From IMG/VR virus record IMGVR_UViG_3300033153_009133, positions 1 through 37,573 of that record: a stretch of 37,573 bases of DNA; one strand, written 5' to 3'. Shown in pieces: positions 1,961 to 34,285 of this stretch. Under the pieces are notes generated by a model. That model did no database searches, was not told the DNA's origin, and saw only the letters and a program-made list of their open reading frames with translations. The stretch's first letter is position 1; each line of letters begins with the position of its first letter. The translations under genes were made by a program, and so were the position numbers. Source of the DNA: a virus.

Positions 1961-2252
1961 CCGTACAAACCGCCGTACCAGGATCCGGCACCCGCAGCCC
2001 GTACCCCGCGCCCTGGATCAACCCGCCGCATCTCGCGCACCGGCCCCACCAGATCGTGAGCCCGTCCTGTTCCTGCCACCAATATCCGCGCTCCAAGATC
2101 TCGTTTCGGATCTTGCGCAGCGCCCCGATCGTCCGATCCCGCATCGCTCCTCGAGGCGCGTCCACGACCAGCTCCTCCGTCCCATTCGTCACCCGCACGC
2201 GGATCCGCACTCCCTGTCGCCGCAACGTATCCAGGTAGGCATCGATGCTCAT
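1854..2252 (-). CDS. TubC-like N-terminal fold plus zinc ribbon
   Basis: A 132-residue protein whose ATG overlaps the primase stop codon (ATGA), so the two are translationally coupled; GGAG precedes the start. Residues 1-55 (LDTLRRQGVRIRV, LVVDAPRGAM, LRKIRNEILE) resemble the small alpha-beta TubC_N-type domain often found beside phage and plasmid primases. Residues 72-99 carry two CxxC pairs (C72/C75, C96/C99), a zinc ribbon. The last 30 residues (SKRSKRF...) are encoded by the iteron-like repeats and the AT-rich dyad, so the DNA there serves two purposes or the C-terminus is poorly constrained. An accessory role in replication is inferred from context. Confidence 0.7.
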   Translation of the reverse strand: MSIDAYLDTLRRQGVRIRVRVTNGTEELVVDAPRGAMRDRTIGALRKIRNEILERGYWWQEQDGLTIWWGRCARCGGLIQGAGYGLRVPDPGTAVCTECGTSKRSKRFSGDIGEKNFPGDQTEKYFSLVYPE

Positions 2253-4942
2253 AGGATGATCTCCTCTCGCGTGCCATCGCTCTCTGCAGGCATCTCCAAC
2301 CCGGGCAATGCCTCGTCCGCTGTCTTATTCTCCAGCCGGGCCAACGTTTGGCGCGTGTTCTCCAACAACTCCTCTTCCAATCCGAATCGTTTTCGTAGCG
2401 CCTCCAGGCGCGTCTCGTTCCACACCACACGATACCGCCGCGTCTGCGGCTCGCGTTCTCGTTGCAATCCCAATTCGTTTTTGACGGCGCTCCCTACGCC
2501 TCGCGCTGTCATCCGTTTCCGCCTGCCTTTATCTTCGTCCTCGTCTCCCTCATCCCCATAGTTCTCGTAATCGATCAGCCGGTTCACCCGCTCCGCGATC
2601 GCCTTCATCGTCAGATCCCCATCCGGCCCGGTGACCAGGATTACCTCCAGGATTTTGCTCGTCGCCGTCAGCCCGCGGTCCGTGATCAGCTCGCGGTTGT
2701 ACTCTTGGATGAATAGGTTGATGTCTTCGCGCAGGTCCGGGTCGTCCACGATCGTTTTCAGCGCCATCGTTACCTGGTTCAGCCGTGGCTCGATGCTCCG
2801 ATCCACGTCCGAGGTATCCAGCTCGATGCTCGGCTGCCAATGCGTCAGCCGATACCGCAGCAACATATTGCGGATCGCCGGGGCCTCCTCCTCGTAAAAC
2901 GAGTTTGGCATTTCGAGCGGGATGTCGTCCCGCGTCAACTGCCCCTCCATTCGCTTGGTCAGACACCTTGACTCCAATGCCTTATCCTGGAACTCTTTCC
3001 TGGTGGCCAGTATCTTGGGTCCGTACACCACATATACCTCTGGCTCGAACCCCGAGTTTTTGTCCCCCGCGCGCAGGATCACCCCCTGGCGCCGCTGGTA
3101 ACCCACGTTGAATAATTTCACGAAATCGGCGCTTTCGTCGCTGTATCGGAAATCCCCTTCATCGAACAGCAACGTCCCCCGGAATTTGTCCAGCGTCCGG
3201 AACACCGGCGAGATCGTCGCCCCGGCATTCGCTTTGATCGGCCGATAGCACATTGCCCCGACCACGTCTTTGAACCGGCTTTTCCCCGTCCCATAGTCCC
3301 CCAGCGCCCGCAAATAGGGCACTGTGTTGAAACAATCGTACAGCCAGGTGAATAGCACGTAATATGCCGCCAGTTTCTCGTAAAATGGATCGATTTCCAC
3401 GTATTTGTGGATCGTCGATCGGATGATCTCGACCAGCTCCCGCGTCGTTTTCTCCGGCCCGATGTCCATTGGGAATTCGACGATCATCTCGCTCAGAAAT
3501 TTGCTCGGCAATAGGGGGACATATCGCACGCCGTGGTCGAACTCGATCCAATCTCGCCGTTCGATCTCGCCCTCCGGTGTCCGCACCGCGAACCAGGTCC
3601 GTCCGCCGCTATGCCCGTTCACGGCATGCGTGTCCTCGGCCGGTTCGTAGACCAACTCGAACAGCGTATCGTTGATGTATCCCCCGACCATCGGCACGGT
3701 GAATAAAACCCCCTCGGCCTCCTGTTCCTCTTTTTCCATCTCTTCGCGTAGCGATTTGAGCATGTTGTTGAACTGCCGCACTCCGATCCGCATCGCGCGG
3801 CACAGCTCCTCGCGCCATGCCGAGATCGAGAATTCATCCAACTTGGCGATTTCGCGGAACACAGCCCGCAATTCCGGCTCCCGCTCCGCGTTCTGCGCCT
3901 GCCCCGCCTTCCTGGCCAGCAGCATGATCCACGGCTCGGCAGCAGCCAGCAGCTCGCGTGCCTGGTCCTCCGTCGTTCCCGCTTGCAACCACTCGTTCGC
4001 GTCCTTGACGCCCTCCGGAGGTTCTACCACCCGGAGTAGGGGGCCGAGCGCGCAGCCTAACCCTGTCACGTCCGTGCGACCATCCCCGTCCGGCCACACG
4101 TACACGCTCCGCATTCGCGCCAATCGCCGCAGCAGCCCGCGTTCTGCGGCCGCGGCCAGCCCGCAGCCAGCCAACGCCACCGCCGAGATCCCCCATTGGC
4201 CCAACGTTACCGCATCCGCCTGCCCCTCGACGATCACGCATTCATCGCCCTGGATCGCGTTCCAGAATGGCTGCCGCGGCCCGGCGATGTTGTTGGGCGG
4301 ATTGTAATGTCCCTTCTGCTCCCGGCTCGCGACGCGTCCGCTGAAATACCGCACCTGCCCTTGCTCGATGTGCGGATAAATCAGCATCCCGTTCGGGATC
4401 GATGCCGCAGTGTTTGCGGCGCGCCCCGCCGCGTCCAGGCCGACAGCAGCCAGTTCTCGCCGCAATGTTCCGGCATCCCGGCTATAGCCCAGGTGGTGTG
4501 CGCGAATCGTCTCATCCGTCCATCCTCGCCCCCGGCAATACGCCAGCGCATCGGGCGTCTCCCAGAGCCATCGCTCGAAAATCGCCATCGCCTGGCCGAG
4601 TATCTCGCGCTCACTGCGCCGCCGGTGATATACTCGCCGGTCTTCCTCTGAGAATGATTCGAGGTAAACTCCCGCCACTTGCGCCGCGATCTCCAGCGCT
4701 CCCCGAAAATCGACCTGTTCCTTGAGCTGAATCAGGTCGAACACATCTCCGCCCCGATTGCACGCCCCGAAGCACCACCACCCACCGTCGTCATATACCA
4801 CGAACGATGGTGTTTTCTCTTGATGTAGGGGGCACAGCGCCCGTTTGCGTCCGCGCCCTGCATATTGAAATCGTACCCCCCATCGTCGCTCACAGAACGC
4901 AGCCAGATCGATCCGCGCCTTGATCTCGTCAATATCCGCCAT
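2249..4942 (-). CDS. DNA primase fused to a P-loop ATPase (replication primase-helicase-like)
   Basis: An 897-residue protein. It has an N-terminal CHC2 zinc finger (C37, H40, C57, C61) of DnaG-type primases and a TOPRIM segment with VEGQADA (E239) and PDGDG (D285, D287). After a linker with a Glu-rich helix (about 380-410) comes a C-terminal ATPase with Walker A GDYGTGKS (548-555) and Walker B LLFDEGD (591-597). The primase half makes RNA primers; the C-terminal half is probably a helicase or related motor for phage DNA replication. I prefer ATG 4942 with AAAGGTGG upstream; GTG 4945 directly before it is also possible. The stop overlaps the start of the Zn-ribbon gene. The order primase, Zn-ribbon, iteron region suggests self-directed replication. 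The ATPase family is not assigned. Confidence 0.9.
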   Translation of the reverse strand: MADIDEIKARIDLAAFCERRWGVRFQYAGRGRKRALCPLHQEKTPSFVVYDDGGWWCFGACNRGGDVFDLIQLKEQVDFRGALEIAAQVAGVYLESFSEEDRRVYHRRRSEREILGQAMAIFERWLWETPDALAYCRGRGWTDETIRAHHLGYSRDAGTLRRELAAVGLDAAGRAANTAASIPNGMLIYPHIEQGQVRYFSGRVASREQKGHYNPPNNIAGPRQPFWNAIQGDECVIVEGQADAVTLGQWGISAVALAGCGLAAAAERGLLRRLARMRSVYVWPDGDGRTDVTGLGCALGPLLRVVEPPEGVKDANEWLQAGTTEDQARELLAAAEPWIMLLARKAGQAQNAEREPELRAVFREIAKLDEFSISAWREELCRAMRIGVRQFNNMLKSLREEMEKEEQEAEGVLFTVPMVGGYINDTLFELVYEPAEDTHAVNGHSGGRTWFAVRTPEGEIERRDWIEFDHGVRYVPLLPSKFLSEMIVEFPMDIGPEKTTRELVEIIRSTIHKYVEIDPFYEKLAAYYVLFTWLYDCFNTVPYLRALGDYGTGKSRFKDVVGAMCYRPIKANAGATISPVFRTLDKFRGTLLFDEGDFRYSDESADFVKLFNVGYQRRQGVILRAGDKNSGFEPEVYVVYGPKILATRKEFQDKALESRCLTKRMEGQLTRDDIPLEMPNSFYEEEAPAIRNMLLRYRLTHWQPSIELDTSDVDRSIEPRLNQVTMALKTIVDDPDLREDINLFIQEYNRELITDRGLTATSKILEVILVTGPDGDLTMKAIAERVNRLIDYENYGDEGDEDEDKGRRKRMTARGVGSAVKNELGLQREREPQTRRYRVVWNETRLEALRKRFGLEEELLENTRQTLARLENKTADEALPGLEMPAESDGTREEIIL

Positions 4943-5188
4943 CACACCACCTTTGGTTCTACGATTGCTGCGATTTCTCGCGCCCGAGCCCGCGCCCTTC
5001 CGCCCGATAAAAGTTTTTTGGGGGGGAGGGGTTCTCCCCCGTGCCTATGTCCCTTAACAAACATTATTGGACATAGAGATGATAGCTACATACACAGCAC
5101 AATAGCACAGGACGGTGCCATATGCTCACGCAAACCCCACGCACCCGGACGGGTGGGGCGCGTCCCCCCTCGACCGGCCTGGCCCACC
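4943..5188. other. intergenic region with two dyads
   Basis: It contains GGGGGAG / CTCCCCC (about 5022-5041) and CCCCAC..GTGGGG (about 5134-5158) inverted repeats. On the - strand the latter follows the coiled-coil gene and could act as a weak terminator, but no T-tract is present. I see no gene here. Confidence 0.35.
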
Positions 5189-5899: not shown

Positions 5900-6118
5900 T
5901 CACAGCACCACAGGAGGACCGCCACTATGGCGGCCCTCCGCTTTCTGAGCGCGCAACGATCGCGCCGTGCGGGTGGCGCCGCATTGTGTGCAATTGTAGA
6001 GTTCCATGGGGCTACAACCTGACGGGACGTCGGTCCAAGATGCGAACCACCGATATACAGTTTCGCATTCGCAGACTGTGCAGTAAGCGAGGATTGAGTT
6101 CGACTCTGGTTCAGTCAT
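5900..6118 (-). CDS. small zinc-ribbon protein
   Basis: A 72-residue protein with a four-cysteine ribbon: C13-T-V-C16 and C43-T-Q-C46, each followed by aromatic or basic residues (ETVYRW, GATRTARSL), plus extra cysteines at 18 and 35. ATG 6118 overlaps the RHH gene by 8 nt and has CGGAG upstream. It is the second gene behind the leftward immunity promoter. Proteins of this shape are common in phage early regions and often bind DNA or RNA polymerase; the role here is unknown. Confidence 0.7.
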   Translation of the reverse strand: MTEPESNSILAYCTVCECETVYRWFASWTDVPSGCSPMELYNCTQCGATRTARSLRAQKAEGRHSGGPPVVL

Positions 6119-6275
6119 GAGCCTGACTCCGTCTCATACGTTCGGATTCCAAAGCTTTGGATAATAGATACCGCACTTGGCCAGCCAAGGTGCGACCCTG
6201 TCGGCTGGCCAACTCTCGCAATTTACGTTTGAATTCCGGATCGACTGGGACACTCAAATATGCCTGCTTTGCCAT
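6111..6275 (-). CDS. ribbon-helix-helix (Arc/CopG-type) regulator
   Basis: A 54-residue protein. It has the RHH pattern: a short strand (AYLSVPVDPEF), a helix (KRKLRELASRQG), a turn, and a second helix (LAGQVRYLLSKALESE). AGGAGGTTAC precedes ATG 6275. It is the first gene transcribed from the near-consensus leftward promoter at 6306-6334 and diverges from the CI-like repressor, the position of a Cro/Arc-type regulator in a temperate phage. It probably binds the operators in the shared control region, perhaps the ATCACA/TGTGAT or CTGGAAAC palindrome; which one cannot be told from sequence. Confidence 0.8.
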   Translation of the reverse strand: MAKQAYLSVPVDPEFKRKLRELASRQGRTLAGQVRYLLSKALESERMRRSQAHD

Positions 6276-6287
6276 GTAACCTCCTCA

Positions 6288-6368
6288 CTGGAAACTAGCG
6301 TTTCCAGTATATCACACATTCTGTGATTTGTCAACATCTGTTTCCAACTCGAAGACTCTAGTTTCCAG
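6288..6368. promoter_or_regulatory. operator region of the lysis-lysogeny switch
   Basis: A perfect palindrome CTGGAAAC-TAGC-GTTTCCAG (6288-6307) overlaps the leftward -10. Two more GTTTCCA half-sites lie at 6340-6346 and 6361-6367, 21 bp apart and about 40 bp from the first (near whole helical turns). A second dyad ATCACA-CATTC-TGTGAT (6311-6327) sits in the promoter spacer. Two dyad types suit two regulators, the HTH repressor and the RHH protein. Confidence 0.75.
6306..6334 (-). promoter_or_regulatory. near-consensus sigma-70 leftward promoter (early promoter)
   Basis: On the - strand: TTGACA (6334-6329), a 17-bp spacer, TATACT (6311-6306). Expected transcription start is about 6299, inside the CTGGAAAC palindrome. 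It drives the RHH gene and the genes to its left, and it is covered by operators. Confidence 0.85.
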
Positions 6369-6377
6369 GTTTAGCGG

Positions 6378-6383
6378 TATTAT
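6378..6383 (+). promoter_or_regulatory. -10 element of the repressor promoter, leaderless mRNA
   Basis: TATTAT ends seven bases before the ATG at 6390, so transcription would begin at or next to the start codon. No Shine-Dalgarno is present. This matches a leaderless repressor message like lambda cI from PRM. The -35 is poor, which suggests activation by a protein bound at the nearby GTTTCCA boxes (inference). Confidence 0.55.
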
Positions 6384-6389
6384 ATGACC

Positions 6390-6908
6390 ATGCGAGATGA
6401 CAAATTGGCAACATGGTTGTCCGAACAATTGAGAATGCGGTCATGGTCAGCACGAGAATTGGCTCGCCAGGCGGGGGTTTCTCACACAATAATCAATCAT
6501 ATCTTAGCGGAAACAAAGACTGCTACTGCGGATATGTGCATCAAAATCGCGAAGGCGCTAGGAGAGGAGCCTGAAATAGTATTGCGCATCGCCGGGAAAA
6601 TGCCTCGATTGCCACCAGAAGTTGAGGATGAACGGGAGTATGTGGCAATGTATCGCAAATTAGAACCGCGCCTACGCGATATGGTCAAAGCCAGCATACG
6701 AGGTCTATTAGGTCAATCCGTTACTATAACCCCATCTGTGCGAGAACGATCAATCCATTACGGCGATGATCCGCTAATACAAAAAATCGTAGCCAGGATC
6801 GAGCGATTATCCCTAGAGGATCTACATCGCTTGGATACCGTGTTGGATAAATTGGATCGCGAACAGAGTGGGATCGATCGTGCATCGGAGAGTTCAACAA
6901 TTACGTAG
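6390..6908 (+). CDS. CI-like HTH (XRE) repressor
   Basis: A 172-residue protein starting MRDDKLATWL at 6390; ATG 6384 overlaps the -10 and is less likely. The N-terminal helix-turn-helix is clear: SARELARQAGVSHTIINHIL (about 19-38) followed by TADMCIKIAKALG. There is no LexA/S24 autoprotease domain; instead a helical C-terminus (EYVAMYRKLEPRLRDMV and LSLEDLHRLDTVLDKL) could serve dimerisation. It faces the RHH gene across 114 bp with shared operators, so it most likely keeps the prophage silent. Without an S24 domain, induction would not follow the usual RecA-driven cleavage. Base composition is visibly more AT-rich than the virion genes. Confidence 0.85.
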   Translation: MRDDKLATWLSEQLRMRSWSARELARQAGVSHTIINHILAETKTATADMCIKIAKALGEEPEIVLRIAGKMPRLPPEVEDEREYVAMYRKLEPRLRDMVKASIRGLLGQSVTITPSVRERSIHYGDDPLIQKIVARIERLSLEDLHRLDTVLDKLDREQSGIDRASESSTIT

Positions 6909-7058
6909 ATTACCAAGGGTTGCTTTGATCTTGGTATACCTCTATTGTGTATGGCTGGGATGGGCACGATGGTTGCATCGATGCATCCATCCCTCAGGCC
7001 GCAACTGGAAAACGCCCAATAATAGATGCAATATTCGATTGATTGAATAGGAGGCATG

Positions 7059-7458
7059 ATGCCTGACGAAACGACATATTATGCGGATAAACGTGTTCGC
7101 GTTACCAATGCACGGGCGATCCTGGACAATAAAACGTATGCGATGGCCAACATCACATCTGTTTCTCTCACTAGCGAAGAGCCCAATCGATTGTGGATGC
7201 CTCGTTTTGGCAGGCATCGTGTTTTTGATTGTTGGATTCATATTGTTAATCAATACGGATGAAACAGGATGGGCTTCTCTCGTTTTTGGAGCATTTGTCG
7301 GGGGACTCGGTATTCTATGGTGGCGTGAAATGAAACCGAAATACCGAGTTACGCTCGGTAGTGCATCAGGTGAGAATCACGCATTAGCGTCGACAAATCG
7401 CGAGTATGTAGAGCAGATCGTGAACGCAATGAATGAGGCAATTATCGAACGAGGTTAG
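7059..7458 (+). pseudogene. DUF6232-like membrane protein, frameshifted
   Basis: Two overlapping + frames make one protein. From ATG 7059 (AGGAGG upstream) the first frame reads YYADKRVRVTNARAIL..KTYAMANITSVSL..EEPNR, which I recognise as the start of DUF6232-type proteins. The continuation expected after it, a hydrophobic hairpin (CLVLAGIVFLIVGFILLI, then WASLVFGAFVGGLGILW) and the tail ending EAIIERG, is in the +1 frame. The change falls at about 7182-7193. A single extra base there would explain it, so this is a pseudogene, a sequencing error or, less likely, programmed shifting. It looks like a lysogenic cargo gene between repressor and integrase. Function unknown. Confidence 0.6.
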
Positions 7459-7546
7459 TATCGGAGTTCAGCGGGTTACGATTACCTGCGCACGTCGGGT
7501 TGACAAATCACAGGTATCCGAGGGACTATGATACACCGTCGGGCCG

Positions 7547-7596
7547 TTCGGGCTCATAACCCGGAGGTCCTAGGTTCGAATCCTAGCCCCGCTACC
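7547..7596 (+). other. 3' half of initiator tRNA-Met: putative attachment site
   Basis: It shows an anticodon arm with loop CTCATAA (anticodon CAT at 7555-7557) and the GGG/CCC stem typical of initiator tRNA. A perfect T arm CTAGG-TTCGAAT-CCTAG (7570-7586) and acceptor strand CCCCGCT plus A follow. The D arm and 5' acceptor strand are missing, so it is not a functional tRNA. With an integrase starting 100 bp away, this is the usual form of an att core taken from a tRNA 3' end. Confidence 0.85.
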
Positions 7597-7598
7597 TA

Positions 7599-7632
7599 AA
7601 AGCCACCGACGCCCTGCGGGCTCGGTGGCTTT
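7599..7632 (+). terminator. terminator of the captured tRNA gene
   Basis: Arms AAAGCCACCGA (7599-7609) and TCGGTGGCTTT (7622-7632) directly after the tRNA fragment. The phage seems to carry the host tRNA terminator as part of the att segment. Confidence 0.7.
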
Positions 7633-7696
7633 CATAACCCGATGGGCTATGGTTCATCCGATCCGCTTTTCTTACATGAACTGGAGGTCTACGGGT

Positions 7697-8665
7697 ATGA
7701 AACTCTCGCGCGCTGCCGATGGTTTCCTCCTGCACAAGTCCGCAGAAGGAAAATCCCCCACCACCACCCGCGAATATCGACGACATCTCAGGCTGCTTAT
7801 CGATTATCTCGGCGATCCCGACGTGGCCGCAATCAAAACCGCCGACCTGCGGGCTTTTCTCGACTACCTGCGTACCGAATATCGCCCATCACGCTTTAGC
7901 GGCGATGCACGGCCCCTCTCGGCCAAATCGCTGCGCAACATCTGGATCACCCTCCGCAGCTTCTACACGTGGGCGGCTGTCGAGCTCGAGCTGCCCGATG
8001 CGCTCGCGTCACTCCATCCGCCTCAATATCAGCTCCCCGAGATCGAAACACTTAGCGAGGTCGAGATCCGTGCCCTCCTGTCCGCCTGCACGCATACCCG
8101 CGCCGCGGACACGCGTCGCCGTCAGGAATTTCGCATGCAGCGACCGACTGCACGGCGCGATCAATCCCTCATTCGCTTCCTGCTCGATACTGGCCTGCGC
8201 GCCTCGGAGTGCGCACGTCTCAACGTTGGCGACGTGGACGTGGCCACCGGAGAGGTCACCGTGCGCCCATTCCGCGCCTCGCGCAAATCGCGGCCCCGCC
8301 ACGTCTACCTGGGCCAACGCACGCAGCGTGCACTGTGGCGTTACCTGGCCGAGCGGGAGGATGGCAATGATCCGAATGCGCCGCTCTTTACGACCGGCGA
8401 TGGCGATCGGCTGCAGGCTGATTCCATGCGCCACCTTCTGCGCCGACTGGGCAAACGCGCCGGGTTGGGCCGCGCAATCTATCCGCACCTTTTCCGCCAC
8501 ACGTTCGCCACGAGCTATATCCGCAATGGCGGCGATATTTTTTCCCTCCAACGGCTACTCGGCCACAGCGATATGGCCATGGTCCGGCGCTATGTGACCC
8601 TGATCCGCGCCGACGTTCAAAATGCGCACCGGCGGGCCTCGCCGGTCGATGTCTGGCGGCTCTGA
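7697..8665 (+). CDS. int: tyrosine recombinase / phage integrase
   Basis: A 322-residue protein starting MKLSRAADGF at 7697 with GGAGG upstream; the frame is open earlier, across the tRNA terminator. The N-terminal SAM-like core-binding domain (residues 1-110, with TTREYRRHLRLLIDYLG) is followed by the catalytic domain, with all key residues visible: R168 (TGLRASE), a likely K197, H264 and R267 (HLFRH), H290 (LLGHS) and Y299 (RRYVTL). It cuts and joins DNA at the att core, which is almost surely the tRNA-fMet fragment just upstream. A strong terminator follows. XerC/D-like architecture without a long arm-binding domain; a dedicated excisionase is not evident. Confidence 0.95.
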   Translation: MKLSRAADGFLLHKSAEGKSPTTTREYRRHLRLLIDYLGDPDVAAIKTADLRAFLDYLRTEYRPSRFSGDARPLSAKSLRNIWITLRSFYTWAAVELELPDALASLHPPQYQLPEIETLSEVEIRALLSACTHTRAADTRRRQEFRMQRPTARRDQSLIRFLLDTGLRASECARLNVGDVDVATGEVTVRPFRASRKSRPRHVYLGQRTQRALWRYLAEREDGNDPNAPLFTTGDGDRLQADSMRHLLRRLGKRAGLGRAIYPHLFRHTFATSYIRNGGDIFSLQRLLGHSDMAMVRRYVTLIRADVQNAHRRASPVDVWRL

Positions 8666-10020: not shown

Positions 10021-12449
10021 CCGTCTACGCTCGCATATCCTTCGGTCCAGATCATGTGCGCCTCAATCGTCGGCGATCCGACCGTGTATACGAAACATGT
10101 GATCAGGTTGTCGCCTGGCTGGAGCGCGAACGATCCGAGATCGCTCCCCGTCAATACGGCCTCCGGTCGCTCGCCGAAAAATGACGAGACGATCGTCTTT
10201 TTCGCCAGATCCAGACGGATGGTCAGCCTCTCCTCATCCAGGAGATCGTATTTGAATTGCAACCCCTGGCCCGTCGTCTCGTTCCGTATCATGTAGAGCG
10301 ATGCGGAGGTACCGCCACTGCGATAGATCTCGATCCGCGGGTACGCGCGCGCCGTGCCGTCGCTCGTCACCGTCGCCGATCCGGCGAAATAGGCCGTGCC
10401 CGCCTGGTCGAATCCGATCCATACGTCGTAATTCGCCTCGATCACCGGGTCGCTCGTCGACACGAGCAACGCCTTCACGACGCTCGCGCTCGGCAGGCGG
10501 ATGTCCGCGCGCGCCCAGGCCGCTCCGTTCCACAGGGCCACGTTGTCCAGATCGATTGCGCCCGTCGAGTCGAAATCGCCCGCGATCCAGATATTGCCCA
10601 GGTCGTCCTCGGCCAAGGCGTAGACGATCCCTGCGCCGCCGCCAGAGAGCACGCCGCTCCCCAGCGCTTCGACCGCGCCGTTCCGATAGATCCCTACGCC
10701 GTTACAGGTCACGTACATAATATCACCCAGGTCACCACCGAAAACGACACGGCCATCACTCAATACAGCCAGCGTGTAGATAGGGCCAGTCGTTGCAGTG
10801 CCTGATGTACCGTTATATAATAGCGTTTGCCACGCACTGCCATCGTATGAGCTGAGACGTATCTTTCCTAGATAATAGCTATCACGACCGCCAGCATATA
10901 GAGTCCCGTCACGACCAAAACCAATCGCATACACTTTGTTGAAGTTCGGTGGCGCCAGGTCCGACCACGCCGATCCGGTCCATTTGTAGACCGACGTGCC
11001 CGATGCGACATAGATCGTATCGTCCCAGTAAGCGATCGAGTACACGGTTGCAGTCAATCCGCCGCCCACCGCCGAGACCGTGCTGCCATCCCACTGCGCG
11101 ACATAGTCCGCGTTCGCGTCGCCGCCGGCGTTCGTGAACTCGCCGCCAAACACCACCGTACCGTCGGGCAGGACCAGAATATCGCGCACGCTCCCGTTCA
11201 GCGCCGCGATCGCCGAATACGTGCCGTTCGCCTTGTGATAGCGCACGATGTAATCCGCGTTCGCGTCGCCGTCCCAATTCTCGAACAGCCCGCCGCTGTA
11301 GACGTAGGTCGCGTCCTCGGCCAGCGCATATACAGTGATCCCCCCGCCCAGATCCGTCACCGAGCTGGGCGGTCCCAGCGGGTCCCATTGCCCGCTTGAT
11401 TTCAGCCGCGCCGCAATGTACCGCAGCGTCGCGCTGTCGCTCGTGTCCAACGCTACTGCGCGCTCTCCGACCGCATACCAATGCGGATCCTCGGCCAGAA
11501 ACTGGATCGCCACATCGCGCTCCAGGAAACCATCTTGCGCCCTCCGGCGCAGCTCCAGGCCGCCGCGATAGTGCGCCGCGATCTGTTTTGTCGTCGTGGC
11601 GCCGGTGTAGCGCAGCCGGACCGGCTGCGTGCCAGGCACGGCGTGCGGATGCAGGACCGCGATCAGGCTCTCGCGCTTGTCATGCAGATCGCTCATCGAG
11701 CTGCCCACGAATCGGCCTGGGATCGCGAATTGCCGCGCTCGCGCCTTGGCTCCCGCCAGCACCGCGCCCGGCAACAATGCCAGCTCCTGTACATCGAGCT
11801 CGATCGGCGGCATGCCCGTTCCGACCTGGCCCTCGGGATAGAAGCCATAGTCCTCCAGATCGTACACCCGCCCGCCCGCGCGGCTCTGAGCGCTGCGCGT
11901 CGAGGTGCTGTTGTGCTCCGCGCCGTTCCACTCGCAGCCATTCTGATCGCCATCGATGTGCGTCGTCTCGTGGTCCGCCGCCACGCAATCGGCGGCATCG
12001 ATGTACACATACACCCCGACGGTCGGGGTCCCGGTCGCGCGGACCAGCAGGTAGCCGAACAGACCGCCTGCGTCTGGCGTCCCCGTCACCGAGACCCGCT
12101 GCCACTGGTCGGTCTTGGTCATGTCGGCGCGGACCGGTCCGCCGCCACTGATGCCGGTGAAACTCGCGAACGAGATCCGCACATCCATGCCGTCGAACGA
12201 ACTGGGGATGTACAGCCAGACCGAGAACGTGTGCGCGGTCGCCGTCAGCGTGATCCCATAGTACGCGATGTTGGTGTGGTTCTGGTAGGTGCATTTGAGC
12301 GAATACACACCGAACTTCGATTGCTCCGAGCTGCGCGCGATTGTGTTGGTGCCATCTGCCGCCCACCCAGTCGTCCCCCGCTCAAAGCTCGGATTCTCGA
12401 TCAAGTTCGTCGCCGCCTCGGGCACGATCAACTGCCAAAAACTGCTCAT
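10017..12449 (-). CDS. distal tail protein with carbohydrate-binding and beta-propeller domains
   Basis: An 810-residue protein. Residues 1-170 form a CBM-like jelly roll (the start LIENPSFERGTTGW is the classic N-FEXGXXGW entry). Residues about 195-340 match the distal-tail (Dit) core: MPPIELDVQELALLPG, GRFVGSSMSDLHDKRESLIAVLHP, VRLRYTG, LAEDPHWY. An inserted region (about 345-690) repeats D-G-x-V-V/Y-x-G-G-x-F and VYALAED-like strands (TVVFGGEFTNAGGDANADYV), a beta-propeller. The last 120 residues close with the siphovirus tail C-terminal beta sandwich (PGDNLITCFVYT). It sits between tape measure and hub, the Dit position. The extra domains make it an evolved Dit that probably binds host surface glycans (inference). 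Confidence 0.85.
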   Translation of the reverse strand: MSSFWQLIVPEAATNLIENPSFERGTTGWAADGTNTIARSSEQSKFGVYSLKCTYQNHTNIAYYGITLTATAHTFSVWLYIPSSFDGMDVRISFASFTGISGGGPVRADMTKTDQWQRVSVTGTPDAGGLFGYLLVRATGTPTVGVYVYIDAADCVAADHETTHIDGDQNGCEWNGAEHNSTSTRSAQSRAGGRVYDLEDYGFYPEGQVGTGMPPIELDVQELALLPGAVLAGAKARARQFAIPGRFVGSSMSDLHDKRESLIAVLHPHAVPGTQPVRLRYTGATTTKQIAAHYRGGLELRRRAQDGFLERDVAIQFLAEDPHWYAVGERAVALDTSDSATLRYIAARLKSSGQWDPLGPPSSVTDLGGGITVYALAEDATYVYSGGLFENWDGDANADYIVRYHKANGTYSAIAALNGSVRDILVLPDGTVVFGGEFTNAGGDANADYVAQWDGSTVSAVGGGLTATVYSIAYWDDTIYVASGTSVYKWTGSAWSDLAPPNFNKVYAIGFGRDGTLYAGGRDSYYLGKIRLSSYDGSAWQTLLYNGTSGTATTGPIYTLAVLSDGRVVFGGDLGDIMYVTCNGVGIYRNGAVEALGSGVLSGGGAGIVYALAEDDLGNIWIAGDFDSTGAIDLDNVALWNGAAWARADIRLPSASVVKALLVSTSDPVIEANYDVWIGFDQAGTAYFAGSATVTSDGTARAYPRIEIYRSGGTSASLYMIRNETTGQGLQFKYDLLDEERLTIRLDLAKKTIVSSFFGERPEAVLTGSDLGSFALQPGDNLITCFVYTVGSPTIEAHMIWTEGYASVDG

Positions 12450-14140
12450 CCGCCCCCTCCGTAAAAGCTGCCCGCCAGATAGACGTCATCCTCCGGAATG
12501 TTGCCCATCCCGTAATTGTTGATCGTCACGTTCGTATTCACCGTGCTCTGCGGCACGTTCGACGGGCGCCCGGGCAATTCGGGTCGGGGCGCGGGCCGCG
12601 GCTGATATACGTCGCTCGGCAGGTAGCCGGTCGCCCCCTGGTACTCGACCCGCACGCGGATCACTTTTTCGCTCGGCAGCGCATCGATGGCCTGTTTGAG
12701 CAGTTCCGCCTGCAGCGTCTCCCGCTCCGTGCGCTGGATCAGCGAGGCCAGCGATTCGTCGAACTCGCCCGCCTTGACGGTCCCATCCGCAAACCGCTCG
12801 ACCAGATCGAACAGCCCTTCCTGCAGCGCCAGGCTTTTTTCGTCCGCCAGGCCAAATGCGAGTTGCGTCTCCTGTACGGCTTGCGAGAACTCTGCCGTCG
12901 TGATCGTCCCCTTGTCCAGCTCCTCGCGCAGCATCGAGATCGCGGCTTCGGCAATCTGCGCGTCGCTCGCGCCTTTGAGCTGCTGCGCCAGCTCGGCCGC
13001 TGCGGTGGCCTGGTCGCGGAATATCGCCGCCAGGTCCGGCGCGGCCGTCGCCGCCGCGCTCATCGCCGCCTCCAGCCGCTCTTCCTCCTGGATCACCGCC
13101 TCCATCGACAAATCAAGCGCATCGAACCCGTCCGCGCTCTCTTCCGCCGCCGATTTCACCATCGGAAGCGCCGTCGTGTGCATGTAGCGCAGTTGCTCGT
13201 TTGCGGTTTTCGTCTCGTCGATCACCGCCAGGCGCACGGTGCTGCGGAAACGTTGCATCGCATCCTGCGCCGCCTTGACCGGCCCCTCCAGGTAGAGCGA
13301 CTGCTTGAACTCTTGCATCGCGTTCGTGGTCGCGAATCCCAGCGTCCATACCTGCCGCAGGTAATCCGGCAGGAGGCGCAGCCGCTCCGTGAATTTGTCC
13401 ACGTTCAGCACGTCGTCCACCATCTCGGCCGCGAATTCCGCCGTGCCCGCCTTGGCGTCCGCGAACGCCGCCTCCAATTTCCCGATCTTGGTCGTCAGTT
13501 CTTCGCTCGTGTCGCCCAATTTGCCCAGCGATTTGCGTCCCTCCTCCAGGACCGCCAGCTTGAATGCCTGGTCCAGGTCATACCCCGCTTTTTTCAACTC
13601 CTCCACACGTTCACGCACGCGCGCGCTGGACATCCCAAAGTTGTCCAACCTGGGGATGCTGCGATTGGCCAACAGCGCGCTGAAATCCGCGATCCGGTTC
13701 CCCGCCGCCTGCGTCTGATCGCCCAGCTTGATCGCGACCGCGGCCATGATCTCCATCTCGTCCGCGTTGTCGACCAGGCCCATCTGCAACATTTTCGTTG
13801 CGCCCTGCATCGCGCTCATCCGGTCGACCGTGTTGTCGCTCGCCCGGGCGAACGCATCCAGGTAGGCGCGCGCCTGATCCGTCCCTCCCGCGAACGCCTC
13901 GAACCGGTGTCGCGCCGTCTGCACCTGCGCGCCGAGCTTGACGAACTCGACCGCCGCCTGCGCGCTCTTGAGCGCCCCCATCGCGCTCACCGCCAGCCGC
14001 GCGGCTTTGACCAATCCGCCCAACTGGCTCCCGCTCTTCTTGGCGCCCTCGCCCAGGTTCTCGATCTCTTTGCCTGCCCCTTTGACCGCCTGGACGTTGC
14101 CCTTGCTGTCGACGAACACCTCCAGGGTAGCCCGTGGCAT
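12446..14140 (-). CDS. tape measure protein
   Basis: A 564-residue protein. ATG 14140 (MPRATLEVFVDSKGN) has GAAGGAGGG upstream. It opens with a short beta segment that is usual for tape measures (ATLEVFVDSKGNVQAVKGAGKEI), then a long Ala-rich helical region with predicted TM-like LGGLVKAARLAVSAMGAL (about 42-59). The body holds the conserved early motif of small siphovirus tape measures (ASDNTVDRMSAMQGATKML, ALLANRSIPRLDNFGMS) and long coiled coils to residue about 510. It is followed by a Gly/Pro-rich C-terminus. It sets tail length; the short size implies a relatively short flexible tail. Confidence 0.9.
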   Translation of the reverse strand: MPRATLEVFVDSKGNVQAVKGAGKEIENLGEGAKKSGSQLGGLVKAARLAVSAMGALKSAQAAVEFVKLGAQVQTARHRFEAFAGGTDQARAYLDAFARASDNTVDRMSAMQGATKMLQMGLVDNADEMEIMAAVAIKLGDQTQAAGNRIADFSALLANRSIPRLDNFGMSSARVRERVEELKKAGYDLDQAFKLAVLEEGRKSLGKLGDTSEELTTKIGKLEAAFADAKAGTAEFAAEMVDDVLNVDKFTERLRLLPDYLRQVWTLGFATTNAMQEFKQSLYLEGPVKAAQDAMQRFRSTVRLAVIDETKTANEQLRYMHTTALPMVKSAAEESADGFDALDLSMEAVIQEEERLEAAMSAAATAAPDLAAIFRDQATAAAELAQQLKGASDAQIAEAAISMLREELDKGTITTAEFSQAVQETQLAFGLADEKSLALQEGLFDLVERFADGTVKAGEFDESLASLIQRTERETLQAELLKQAIDALPSEKVIRVRVEYQGATGYLPSDVYQPRPAPRPELPGRPSNVPQSTVNTNVTINNYGMGNIPEDDVYLAGSFYGGGG

Positions 14141-14218
14141 CGTCCCTCCTTCAATGCAAAAGCGAGGACGTCCATCCATCGGATGGTCCGTCCCCGCTTC
14201 CCGCCGTGCGCGTCGCGA

Positions 14219-14690: not shown

Positions 14691-14840
14691 CAAAAGCCCG
14701 CATTGGCGCGTGCACCTGGCGGAGTCGGAAAACTCTTTACCGGGGGGTACGCCAATGCGGGCCTTTGCCCGCAAAACCTCGCTTTCGCTTTGCGGCCAGG
14801 CACAGTTCCCCCGCGCGTATTCCCTTGAGTTTTCCGACTC
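14691..14840 (-). ncRNA. structured RNA / riboregulator candidate with pseudoknot
   Basis: From the predicted start at 14840 the RNA begins GAGTCGGAAAACTC (A5', 14840-14827). A hairpin GCCT..CCGCAAA / TTTTGCGG..AGGC with a GCGAAAGC tip follows. Next come B5' GCCCGCATTGGCG (14762-14750), A3' GAGTTTTCCGACTC (14735-14722) and B3' CGCCAATGCGGGC (14708-14696), then TTTT. A5':A3' pairs over 14 bp and B5':B3' over 13 bp. The order A-B-A-B makes a pseudoknot, and B plus TTTT is also an intrinsic terminator. A3' can instead pair with the next gene's ribosome site. The structure is seen in sequence; function is inferred. Confidence 0.75.
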
Positions 14841-14884: not shown

Positions 14885-15416
14885 CTACCGTCCTCCGGCC
14901 ACGAGCGCCGCCTTTTTCATCCACAGGATCACGTCCTCCACCACCGCCGCCGGGGTTTCGCACAACTCCCGCCAGCTCCAGCCCATCCAGCGCATCACTG
15001 CCAGCGGGGCCATGCTCCCCGGCAATCTTTCCTTCCGCAGCGCGATCTCGAGCTCCTCTTCAAAACCCGGCCTGCTCCTCGGCAGACCTCCTCTCGTTCA
15101 ACTCGCGGATCGCCTGATAGATGAAATCGCCGTCCTGGGCCGACAGCGCCCGGATTCGCTCCGGCGTGCAGGGTACCCGCTCCCCCTCCGCGTCGCGCAG
15201 CGTCCATTCGACGATCCCGCGCTCCATCCGCGCCGCGTGCCAGTCGGCGCGGTTCACCTGCACCCGCGCCCCGCCCTCGTCGTCCGGCACGATCTCGGTC
15301 GCCTGCTCTGAGATCACCTGTTCGTCGTACCAGGTGAACCGCCGGACCGTGACGCTCTCGCCCTCCTCCCACCACGGCGCGTGGATCGTCCGTTGCTCCT
15401 CGATGAAATGTGCCAT
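14885..15416 (-). CDS. tail assembly chaperone gpG-gpT fusion made by frameshift
   Basis: The second tail assembly chaperone lies in the frame offset from the 118-residue gpG-like protein. Reading FEEELEIALRKE..APLAVMRWMGWSWRELCE..VVEDVILWMKK to TAG 14885 adds 59 residues of good helical protein with no start codon or ribosome site of its own at the junction. The junction is GGG TTT TGA A (15068-15059). A +1 slip on TTT at the weak UGA gives TTT GAA, the arrangement used by the release-factor-2 gene (CTT TGA C to TTT GAC). A -2 slip would give the same frame. Fused chaperones bind the tape measure during tail assembly; most phages use a -1 shift. Confidence 0.75.
15060..15416 (-). CDS. tail assembly chaperone gpG-like protein
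   Basis: A 118-residue protein. ATG 15416 (MAHFIEEQRTIHAPWW) has GGAGAGGG upstream. It starts with a beta-rich segment (ESVTVRRFTWYDEQVI), followed by helices and ends FIYQAIRELNERRSAEEQAGF at TGA 15060. Placement right after the major tail protein and before the tape measure, plus the overlapping second frame, identifies the first of the two tail chaperones. It is the product when no frameshift occurs. Confidence 0.8.
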   Translation of the reverse strand: MAHFIEEQRTIHAPWWEEGESVTVRRFTWYDEQVISEQATEIVPDDEGGARVQVNRADWHAARMERGIVEWTLRDAEGERVPCTPERIRALSAQDGDFIYQAIRELNERRSAEEQAGF

Positions 15417-15431
15417 TGACCCTCTCCTCAT

Positions 15432-15465
15432 AGACCCTAAGGGTTTTCTCGAACCCTTAGGGTCT
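15432..15465. repeat. ACCCTAAGGGT hairpin repeat, copy 1
   Basis: Inverted repeat AGACCCTAAGGGTT / AACCCTTAGGGTCT placed between the chaperone and major tail genes. A T-rich run follows on the + strand only. One of five near-identical copies in the window. Confidence 0.9.
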
Positions 15466-15568: not shown

Positions 15569-16597
15569 TTAGGTCGGGTACGTGTCCAGCAGATTGTAGC
15601 ACTTGACCTGGAACATGTGCCCGCCAGTGCTGTCGTACACCGCGTTTGCCGGGACCTCGAAGGTCGTCATCCCCTCGTCCGCGCCCCACTCCGGCCAGCC
15701 CGCGTACCGCAGCGCCATGTCGATCTCGACGTACGGGGGGTTCCCCTGGCCGCTGTCCTGCTCCGTGCTTCCATACAGCGTCAACCGCGCGAACCGCGTC
15801 GTCCGGTTCTCGAACGCCGTGCGCTCCGTGTCCGCGTCGCTCCCCCAGGCATAGGTCAGCGTCAACGTCGGCGCCTTCTTCACCTCCGTCACCCGCGCGA
15901 AATAGAGGTCGCCATCCGACGTGTAGAACGGCCGCAACCCCGTGTCGAACTCGAACGAGAACGCACGCAACAATCCCGTCTTTTGCGTGTTCCCCAGGTT
16001 CGCCCACGAGCTGTCGAGATAGAACTTGGCCTTGTTGAACGGGAGGATCTGCACGCTCTGCGCCGATAGACTGCCGGTGAACGTCGTGTCCATCCGCTGT
16101 CGCCCGACCATCTCCAACCGGAATTGCACCGCCTCGTTCGGCCGCCCCTCGATCGTCCACCGCGTCGCGAAACAATACTCGGTCTCGTACGCCTGCGTAT
16201 CGTCCCCGTACTCGACCGTGAACGTGTCCACCCCGTCGGCCTGGTCCGGCGTGTTCGCCGTCGTGTACGCGGGCTCGAACGTCCAGAGATACGAGTTCGG
16301 CTCGTTCTCTGCGTCCGGTTGCGTTGGCGTCACGTTCCCGCGGATCGCCATCGCGGCCTGCCATACCGCGTGCCGGGCGTTCAGGTCGCCCTCCCAATTG
16401 ATCCGGACCTCCTTGCCCACCACCTCGTCGTCCGCCTGGTGGAGCGCCAGGCTGTTCCGGTCGTCCGTTGGCCAGTGGATCGTGAGCACCTCCTCCCACG
16501 TTCCCCGGCCCTTGAGCAGCTCGACCGCGGCCTCCGCCGATCCAATTGTGTCTTCCGGATTGCTGATCTGTAGCCGTCGAAATGCCTCCAATGCCAT
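15569..16597 (-). CDS. major tail protein
   Basis: A 342-residue beta-rich protein; GGGAGGTGAGGG precedes ATG 16597. It begins ALEAFRRLQISNPEDTIGSAEAAVELLKG and contains long runs of alternating strand pattern (FTVEYGDDTQAYETEYCFATRWTIEG; QFRLEMVGRQR; RFARLTLYGS), typical of large siphovirus tail tube subunits, with a late segment PPYVEIDMALRYAGW. Position between the tail terminator and the tail chaperones fixes the assignment. It forms the tail tube through which DNA passes. Confidence 0.85.
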   Translation of the reverse strand: MALEAFRRLQISNPEDTIGSAEAAVELLKGRGTWEEVLTIHWPTDDRNSLALHQADDEVVGKEVRINWEGDLNARHAVWQAAMAIRGNVTPTQPDAENEPNSYLWTFEPAYTTANTPDQADGVDTFTVEYGDDTQAYETEYCFATRWTIEGRPNEAVQFRLEMVGRQRMDTTFTGSLSAQSVQILPFNKAKFYLDSSWANLGNTQKTGLLRAFSFEFDTGLRPFYTSDGDLYFARVTEVKKAPTLTLTYAWGSDADTERTAFENRTTRFARLTLYGSTEQDSGQGNPPYVEIDMALRYAGWPEWGADEGMTTFEVPANAVYDSTGGHMFQVKCYNLLDTYPT

Positions 16598-33178: not shown

Positions 33179-34285
33179 CTATTCTAGCCCGGCGGGCAGG
33201 ACATCTTTTGCGATCTCTGCGTGAACCGTATGCTTGCGAATGTGCAATCGAATGCTCTTGGCAATGACACGGGCCAGCGCTATGGGCACCGCGTTGCCAA
33301 TCAGTCTACCGACAGTAGAGATGTGATAGTTCACTGTTGGATCGAAGAATTCGTAGTCTTTCGGGAAGGTCTGCAACAAAGCGGCTTCTCGCAACGAGAT
33401 GGCGCGATCTTGCTCGGGGTGTCCAAAACGACCATTCCCAAAACCGTAGCATTGCGTCGTGATGGTCGGCGACGGTTCGTCCCACGTCATCCGCCCATAG
33501 ACGCTCTTGTACCACCTGCCGTTCCTCTTGGTATGACAGGTAGCGCGTAGTGCGTCGTCCCAATCCAGCCAAGTGCCCCCCGGCACTGAAGCTCTGATGC
33601 GTCTCAGATTCAGCTCGGACAAGCGACTTGCTCGGTGTAAAGGATCGTCTGGGTGGGTTTCGCCCGCTTCGATCGGTGGAAGGTCTCCTATGGCTTCACG
33701 TACGGTGCGATATCGCCTTGGTATGTGGGATTTCCTGAGAAGTTCGACCCTTCCCCACCTGGATGCGAACAAGATCAGTCGAGTTCGTCGTTGGGGGACA
33801 CCATAGTCGGGTGCATATACTCTAGGATAAGAAGAAACCTCGTACCCACTATGCTCCAAAGCCTCACAGAAGTCTCGATAGACGCGACCACTCTTGTACG
33901 TCGAGAGGCGAGGAACATTCTCCATCGCAACGATGTCTGGTCGCGTGGTCTTGATGAGATCGGCGAAGACGTACAGTAGATCCCAGTCTTCGTGCTCACC
34001 TGCCTTGCGGGTGTACGACGAGAACGGTTGACAAGGGGCACAACCGACGAGGATCTTTACGTGTCCCTCTGGATAGAACTGTAGAACGTCAACAGGGTCG
34101 AGATCCTCCACTCTCGCTTGTACGAATCGGGCATTGGGATTGTTCTTCTCGAAAGGGTACTTGCAGGCTGGATCCGCATCGATGCCTGCTGCCACGTGGA
34201 AGCCCTCCAAGACGAAGCCGTGTGTCAGACCACCAGCTCCGCAAAAGACATCTACTACGGTGCAGTTGTTGGCTTGTTTAACCAT
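33179..34285 (-). CDS. C5-cytosine DNA methyltransferase (orphan)
   Basis: A 368-residue protein with all main motifs: I FCGAGGLTHGF (14-24), II-like GIDADPAC, IV GCAPCQPFSSY with catalytic C85, VI ENVP (122-125), VIII PQRRTRLILFASR, a target-recognition region (about 200-300), IX REAALLQTFP and X GNAVP. It puts a methyl group on C5 of cytosine at a specific DNA site. No restriction endonuclease gene is nearby, so its likely job is to protect phage DNA from host enzymes. Composition is less GC-rich than the virion genes, suggesting later gain. Confidence 0.92.
   Translation of the reverse strand: MVKQANNCTVVDVFCGAGGLTHGFVLEGFHVAAGIDADPACKYPFEKNNPNARFVQARVEDLDPVDVLQFYPEGHVKILVGCAPCQPFSSYTRKAGEHEDWDLLYVFADLIKTTRPDIVAMENVPRLSTYKSGRVYRDFCEALEHSGYEVSSYPRVYAPDYGVPQRRTRLILFASRWGRVELLRKSHIPRRYRTVREAIGDLPPIEAGETHPDDPLHRASRLSELNLRRIRASVPGGTWLDWDDALRATCHTKRNGRWYKSVYGRMTWDEPSPTITTQCYGFGNGRFGHPEQDRAISLREAALLQTFPKDYEFFDPTVNYHISTVGRLIGNAVPIALARVIAKSIRLHIRKHTVHAEIAKDVLPAGLE

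Follow-up and report, generated by a model that had tools for sequence, protein, structure and literature searches.

A conserved UUU_Y junction and a probable programmed +1 ribosomal frameshift in the putative tail chaperone cassette of an uncultivated virus family

The window, by which we mean the whole stretch of DNA that was analyzed, is a 37,573-base virus record whose head genes are Mu-like (Portal_Mu, E 2.3e-29; Mu-like_gpT, E 1.9e-17) and whose tail genes are of siphovirus type (Phage_tube_2 and Sipho_Gp37, with SPP1_Dit slightly below the cut-off), all by Pfam search. Two small open reading frames (ORFs), here called gpG and gpT, lie between the tail tube gene and the probable tape measure gene, which is the arrangement of a lambda-type cassette, although the tape measure gene was called mainly by position (Table 1). 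A 148-aa ORF and a structured region separate gpT from the putative tape measure ORF.

The structured region, 120 nt long and bounded by a perfect 14-nt terminal inverted repeat, has a folding z of -5.8 against shuffles, and a sigma70-like promoter (TTGACA-17-TATCAT, 11/12 matches) stands 8 nt before it. We regard this stretch, between gpT and the next ORF, as a candidate structured non-coding RNA; it matched no Rfam family, its single miRNA match was at chance level, and its arm motif was absent from the 63 other loci compared. The space that separates the tail tube gene from gpG holds a 15-bp hairpin, 15 nt 5' of the gpG ATG; this hairpin has a T run on the + strand only and could trim or attenuate the tail mRNA. 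Elsewhere in the window, G+C content is 0.50 at 6001-8000, where + strand ORFs encode an HTH_3 regulator and a DUF6232 protein, and about 0.59-0.69 in the rest; a C-5 cytosine DNA methylase and a large protein with a zinc ribbon are also encoded.

Table 1. Positions of features in the window
Feature	Position	Strand	Remarks
Tail tube protein	15569..16597	-	Upstream of gpG; Phage_tube_2, E 5e-8
Hairpin, 15 bp	15432-15465		
gpG, predicted tail assembly chaperone, 118 aa, ATG to TGA	15060..15416	-	AF2 model (pLDDT 86), Foldseek against BFVD
gpG/gpT overlap, 38 nt	15060..15097	-	+1 frame open from 15097 only
Putative +1 shift site, UUU_UGA	15060..15065	-	P-site codon 15065-15063, skipped U 15062, A-site stop 15062-15060
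gpT, putative C-terminal extension, +1 frame, 58 codons + TAG	14885..15061	-	Homologues; predicted helical
Sigma70-like promoter	14876-14848		
Candidate structured non-coding RNA	14721-14840	-	
Probable tape measure protein	12446..14179	-	Downstream; position and length; phrog_167 weak, E 0.26
C-5 cytosine DNA methylase	33179-34285	-	E 2.2e-54
898-aa protein with DnaG-type CHC2 zinc ribbon	2249-4945	-	

On the - strand, gpG ends in GGG (15068-15066), TTT (15065-15063), and TGA (15062-15060), followed by A at 15059, as an earlier sequence-only reading of this DNA had stated; an alternative in-frame start for gpG, ATG at 15431, is possible. That reading had also held that a single shifted frame continues past this stop, for 59 residues to 14885, and this was confirmed, with gpT reading GAA GAG GAG CTC from 15061 and reaching 59 residues if the shared Phe is counted. 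The gpT frame is reachable from gpG by a +1 or a -2 shift only; a -1 slip does not give it, and neither does an evident start codon, both as claimed before: the first ATG, GTG, or TTG in this frame is a TTG 36 nt inside T, and none lies ahead of codon 13. TTT_TGA is the sole site in the window overlap at which a +1 slip would leave the P-site tRNA on a cognate codon, and 7 other loci likewise have one sole site.

Neither gpG nor gpT of the window had a significant Pfam match or a PHROG match, and a Pfam search of the G and T proteins of the family described below returned no family. Among 17 members, G gave weak matches, at best E 0.012, to chaperone PHROGs (phrog_344 in 4 and phrog_313 in 2), whereas T matched phrog_9001, a tail assembly chaperone group, in 5/17 (best E 3.4e-4), the window not being among the five. 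Structure prediction was more informative for gpG, whose AF2 model had 16 matches at E <= 0.001 in BFVD by Foldseek, several of them named tail assembly or tape measure chaperones. The top match was the tail assembly chaperone of Bacillus phage Gemini (E 1.6e-6), and others were to Vibrio phage JSF10 (E 7e-5), Arthrobacter phage Salgado (E 5e-4), and FS-gp41 of Mu (E 5e-3); against the PDB nothing was significant and nothing fell below E 0.7. The predicted fold of gpG is thus, as in a lambda-type cassette, that of a chaperone. The gpT model consists of four helices (pLDDT 83), in line with the earlier description of a helical protein, and its fold search gave no significant match.

Relatives were not found with gpG alone as the query, which returned nothing in the first scan, and INPHARED phages included no close relative by DNA or by gpG alone. 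No gpG relative that would point to a host was found in genome contigs. A search with the tube protein returned four contigs, three of them at 59-60% identity, and these three carry the same two ORFs behind the tube gene, with T in +1. Profile searches with G and T widened the +1 set to 17 contigs which, with the window, make 18 loci, all of them uncultivated viral contigs; no isolate was found for the virus family that carries the TTT_Y +1 cassette. The fused G-T proteins are 28-96% identical pairwise (median, 44%), the highest value being that of the near-copies L024 and L051. T is conserved as a protein in all 17 other contigs (16 in one set, with L051 added separately): in 13 close pairs, picked by hand and none of them mixing CGA with UGA members (see below), T differences by codon position 1/2/3 number 270/203/386 over 835 codon pairs, and G differences also peak at codon position 3 (725 over 1,595 codon pairs).

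At each of the 18 loci, the window among them, T is in +1 relative to G and TTT is the last codon that the two share, a count to be read with the shared descent of these loci in mind, which makes their sites other than independent events; a lambda-type cassette, in contrast, would reach T at -1. The earlier claim that T is joined to gpG by a frameshift is strongly supported by the 17 relatives. The skipped base is C in 14/18 and T in 4/18, and the A-site codon is CGA in 13, UGA in 4 (the window, L023, L029, and L030), and CCG in L026 (Table 2), so that the orthologous site reads TTT_YGA in 17/18 loci and TTT_CCG in one. The sequence-only reading had listed two observations in relatives that would count against it, namely different nucleotides at the junction and an ordinary gpT start codon. 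Its TTTTGA recurs in only 4/18 loci; most have TTTCGA, which keeps the slip, now from UUU to UUC, and has an Arg codon in place of the stop. No clear ordinary start was found; L029 and L030, where an ATG precedes the junction by 12 nt, are the weakest cases.

Table 2. Codon before the junction, P-site codon, and A-site codon at the 18 loci
Locus	Junction
Window	GGG.TTT.TGA
L023	TCC.TTT.TGA
L029	TTA.TTT.TGA
L030	TTG.TTT.TGA
L002, L024, L051	TCC.TTT.CGA
L003, L004, L016, L025	AAC.TTT.CGA
L019	CGG.TTT.CGA
L021	TTT.TTT.CGA
L022	ACA.TTT.CGA
L027, L028	ACG.TTT.CGA
L046	GGG.TTT.CGA
L026	CAA.TTT.CCG

TTT_CGN or TTT_TGA occurs at 0/3,387 codon positions elsewhere in the G and T genes of the 18 loci. 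Codon bias does not account for TTT at 18/18 junctions, because the remaining Phe codons in these genes (17 loci) are 28 TTT and 45 TTC. The six site bases show no difference in the 13 close pairs, whereas adjacent positions differ; a GAR codon is kept after the site, for which the Glu it encodes in T may be partly responsible. On a tree, the four UGA members fall in two pairs and require 2 changes, and L023 and L026 sit on long branches; the UGA members may be of one origin.

The tRNA-Phe anticodon, GAA, pairs with both UUU and UUC. A pyrimidine is skipped after an in-frame TTT at 18/18 junctions, and tRNA-Phe would therefore re-pair on UUC or UUU everywhere after a +1 slip. This bears directly on the choice, left undecided by the sequence-only reading, between +1 and -2. 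Slippage by -2 yields the same T frame with one extra residue (AGFFEEEL), it is documented for gpGT of Mu (PMC5009743, PMC3498833), and it could re-pair in L021, where the site is TTT_TTT; elsewhere, however, it would leave the Phe tRNA on GGT (window), CCT, ACT, CGT, CAT, and others, so that cognate pairing is kept in 1/18 loci against 18/18 after +1, and the E-site codon is not conserved. We accordingly favor +1 and consider a -2 slip very improbable.

It is similarly hard to credit that gpT is translated separately, by re-initiation or from a start codon of its own, with no fusion protein made. Some start codon does lie upstream in the T frame in 8/17 loci, among them the ATG codons of L029 and L030, and the annotation of virus Rctr41k (discussed below) starts T at a GTG located at the junction, but 9/17 loci (window included; L051 was not in this set) have no ATG, GTG, or TTG in the stretch running from the last T-frame stop to the junction, and in the window conserved residues precede codon 13, ahead of which start codons are absent. 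Re-initiation at the junction is also unavailable in CGA and CCG members, because their gpG stop lies 4-19 codons further on (among 17 loci). Transcriptional slippage, a sequencing error, or two unrelated ORFs would be the least credible account and is, in our judgment, extremely unlikely. TTTT in the window is a short homopolymer, but RNA polymerase slippage normally requires longer runs, and most members have TTT and then C only; the same offset is kept in 17 further contigs, and the codon-position-3 excess in T also counts against this account. We also rejected the idea that UGA is read as sense, as a mechanical listing shows many window ORFs ending in TGA, and reading on in the zero frame beyond the stop does not yield the conserved T.

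We are thus highly confident, from the conserved +1 arrangement and the modeled gpG fold, that gpGT is produced from gpG by programmed +1 ribosomal frameshifting within a tail cassette of siphovirus-like type; the shift most likely happens when the P-site tRNA slips forward by one base on UUU_Y while a slow codon or a stop occupies the A site. The +1 arrangement and the conservation of UUU_Y come from the sequences and the chaperone fold of gpG from structure prediction; what we infer is that the P-site tRNA does the slipping, how often it does so, and what gpGT does. In the window, the ribosome would decode GGG-UUU and then meet UGA in the A site, where termination would be slow or incomplete; the peptidyl-tRNA-Phe could then move +1, from UUU onto the overlapping UUU, and GAA would be decoded in the new frame to give ...AEEQAGF-EEELEIAL... 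The majority of ribosomes would stop and release gpG, and a minority would produce gpGT, which by analogy with lambda may link the tube subunit to the tape measure protein. Most relatives would instead pause at CGA, with the slip going from UUU to UUC.

The earlier comparison with the release factor 2 (RF2) site holds in part. The window, along with L023, L029, and L030, resembles prfB (CUU_UGA_C) in having UGA in the A site and, by inference, a +1 slip in the P site, but it differs in its P-site codon (UUU versus CUU), in the A after UGA, and in its product, a putative tail chaperone rather than RF2, and there is no stop at the site in 14/18 members. In prfB a Shine-Dalgarno sequence stands about 3 nt upstream of the P-site codon; here no match at such short or fixed spacing was found, the best anti-Shine-Dalgarno match per locus being scattered at 6-23 nt upstream (20 nt in the window). 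The UUU_CGN motif, present in 13/18 members (always as CGA; the window itself has UGA), is a closer analogue of the site than RF2. No consistent 3' stimulatory structure was detected in 17 loci, only L003 reaching a z of -3.2, against a codon-shuffle rather than a dinucleotide control. CGA accounts for 5-17% of Arg codons in the family loci, which is low but not extreme. When the UGA of an RF2-type reporter was replaced by CGN codons in Bacillus subtilis and +1 shifting was measured, the largest rise occurred at CGA when the inosine modification was missing, although in the wild type translation was unimpeded by four CGA codons (PMC10454642), and CGA is therefore not slow in every host. The authors of PRFect cite UUU, together with CCC, as next in slipperiness when the codon ahead of the stop is randomized (PMC10885494).

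Beyond the +1 set, the T searches brought up 30 further loci, and 24 of these were examined by script for an upstream ORF placing T at -1 (L012 and L013, repeats of L011, and L056, L059, L060, and L064 were left out). Such an ORF was found in 24/24, with an X_XXY_YYZ heptamer somewhere in the overlap in 19/24 and TTTYGA in the overlap in 0/24. It seems from these sequences that one T family is entered through a -1 shift in some viruses but through a +1 shift in the clade of the window, with the homology of T to the -1 loci resting on a short protein and on tblastn E-values up to 1e-3 among the candidate stretches.

A one-base ribosomal skip is best known from influenza virus and from the bacterial release factor gene. 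Tailed phages use -1, -2, or +1 depending on the phage, and HSTV-2 very likely uses +1 (Atkins and others, PMC5009743). The closest precedent for our family is the +1 shift at TTT-CGC proposed between the tail chaperones of HF1-group haloviruses (PMC7230728), in which the chaperone pair likewise lies between tube and tape measure and is joined in +1 at UUU_CGN. On our re-reading of HF2 (NC_003345), AAG_TTT_CGC is the sole cognate +1 site in an 83-nt overlap. Those viruses, however, are archaeal myoviruses with CGC rather than CGA or UGA in the A site, the proposal was made without experiment, and gpG of HF2, judged by eye, is unlike gpG of the family. UUU_CGN is also the +1 motif of influenza A PA-X and of plant and fungal amalgavirus-like viruses, of which UvNV1 and NoURV1 carry UUU_CGA itself (PMC3498833, PMC5052127); there too the slip is from UUU in the P site to UUC while the A site holds an Arg codon, CGN, but these are RNA viruses on eukaryotic ribosomes, and the window has UGA for CGN. 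The pairs gpG/gpGT of lambda and gp41/FS-gp41 of Mu have the same place and the same rare C-terminal extension, and the predicted gpG fold matches Mu FS-gp41, but the lambda shift is -1 and the Mu shift -2 (PMC5009743, PMC3498833), and re-pairing of the Mu type would be cognate at only one of the 18 loci. Among phage +1 shifts, those of Listeria phages PSA, A118, and A500 occur at CCC_UGA, also before a UGA stop (PMC5009743), and SPP1 is named as another (PMC3498833); unlike the family, these involve a Pro codon and the major tail protein, not a chaperone. In the open-licence PMC literature searched, neither UUU_CGA nor UUU_UGA came up in connection with tail chaperones.

For a wider look, six records from a terminase search were used, and the chaperone region was analyzed in four of them. 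Acetobacter phage phiAO1 and Bradyrhizobium phage BDU-MI-1 appear by eye to be -1. In virus Rctr41k, a +1 ORF is joined near the end of the chaperone-position ORF at TCC_TTT_CGT, the sole cognate +1 site in a 101-nt overlap and the same site (UCC_UUU_CGU) as that of influenza PA-X, with the annotated GTG start at the junction. In vir524 (BK063669, Methanomicrobiales, L069:21823-22420), the overlap of a chaperone-position ORF with the +1 ORF after it holds TCC_TTT_CGG, near the end of the former, alongside three other cognate +1 sites. Neither virus had relatives in the phage collection, and we treat these sites as leads, not proof.

Taken together, this is a genuine and well-conserved +1 frameshift cassette of a kind already known; what appears to be new is the breadth of the virus family and the fact that CGA and UGA stand in for each other at a single orthologous site. 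With the chances about evenly balanced, tailed viruses of both bacteria and archaea may repeatedly have arrived at one general +1 cassette that controls tail-chaperone stoichiometry, in which UUU_Y precedes either a slow codon (UUU_CGN) or a stop (UUU_UGA) and a single transition freely exchanges the CGA and UGA pause codons. If so, tRNA-Arg supply would govern the gpG:gpGT ratio in certain lineages and RF2 would do so elsewhere, and these viruses would have reached the same solution as influenza PA-X. Known prokaryotic +1 shifts are few, and a general forward motif has, according to PRFect, yet to be identified (PMC10885494). Eighteen diverged copies in which the P site is tightly kept and the pause codon is a stop or Arg CGA amount to a natural experiment on the requirements for +1 shifting, and a family whose T domain is shared by -1 relatives would make both the switch in frameshift direction and the trade between a hungry and a stop codon testable with reporters.
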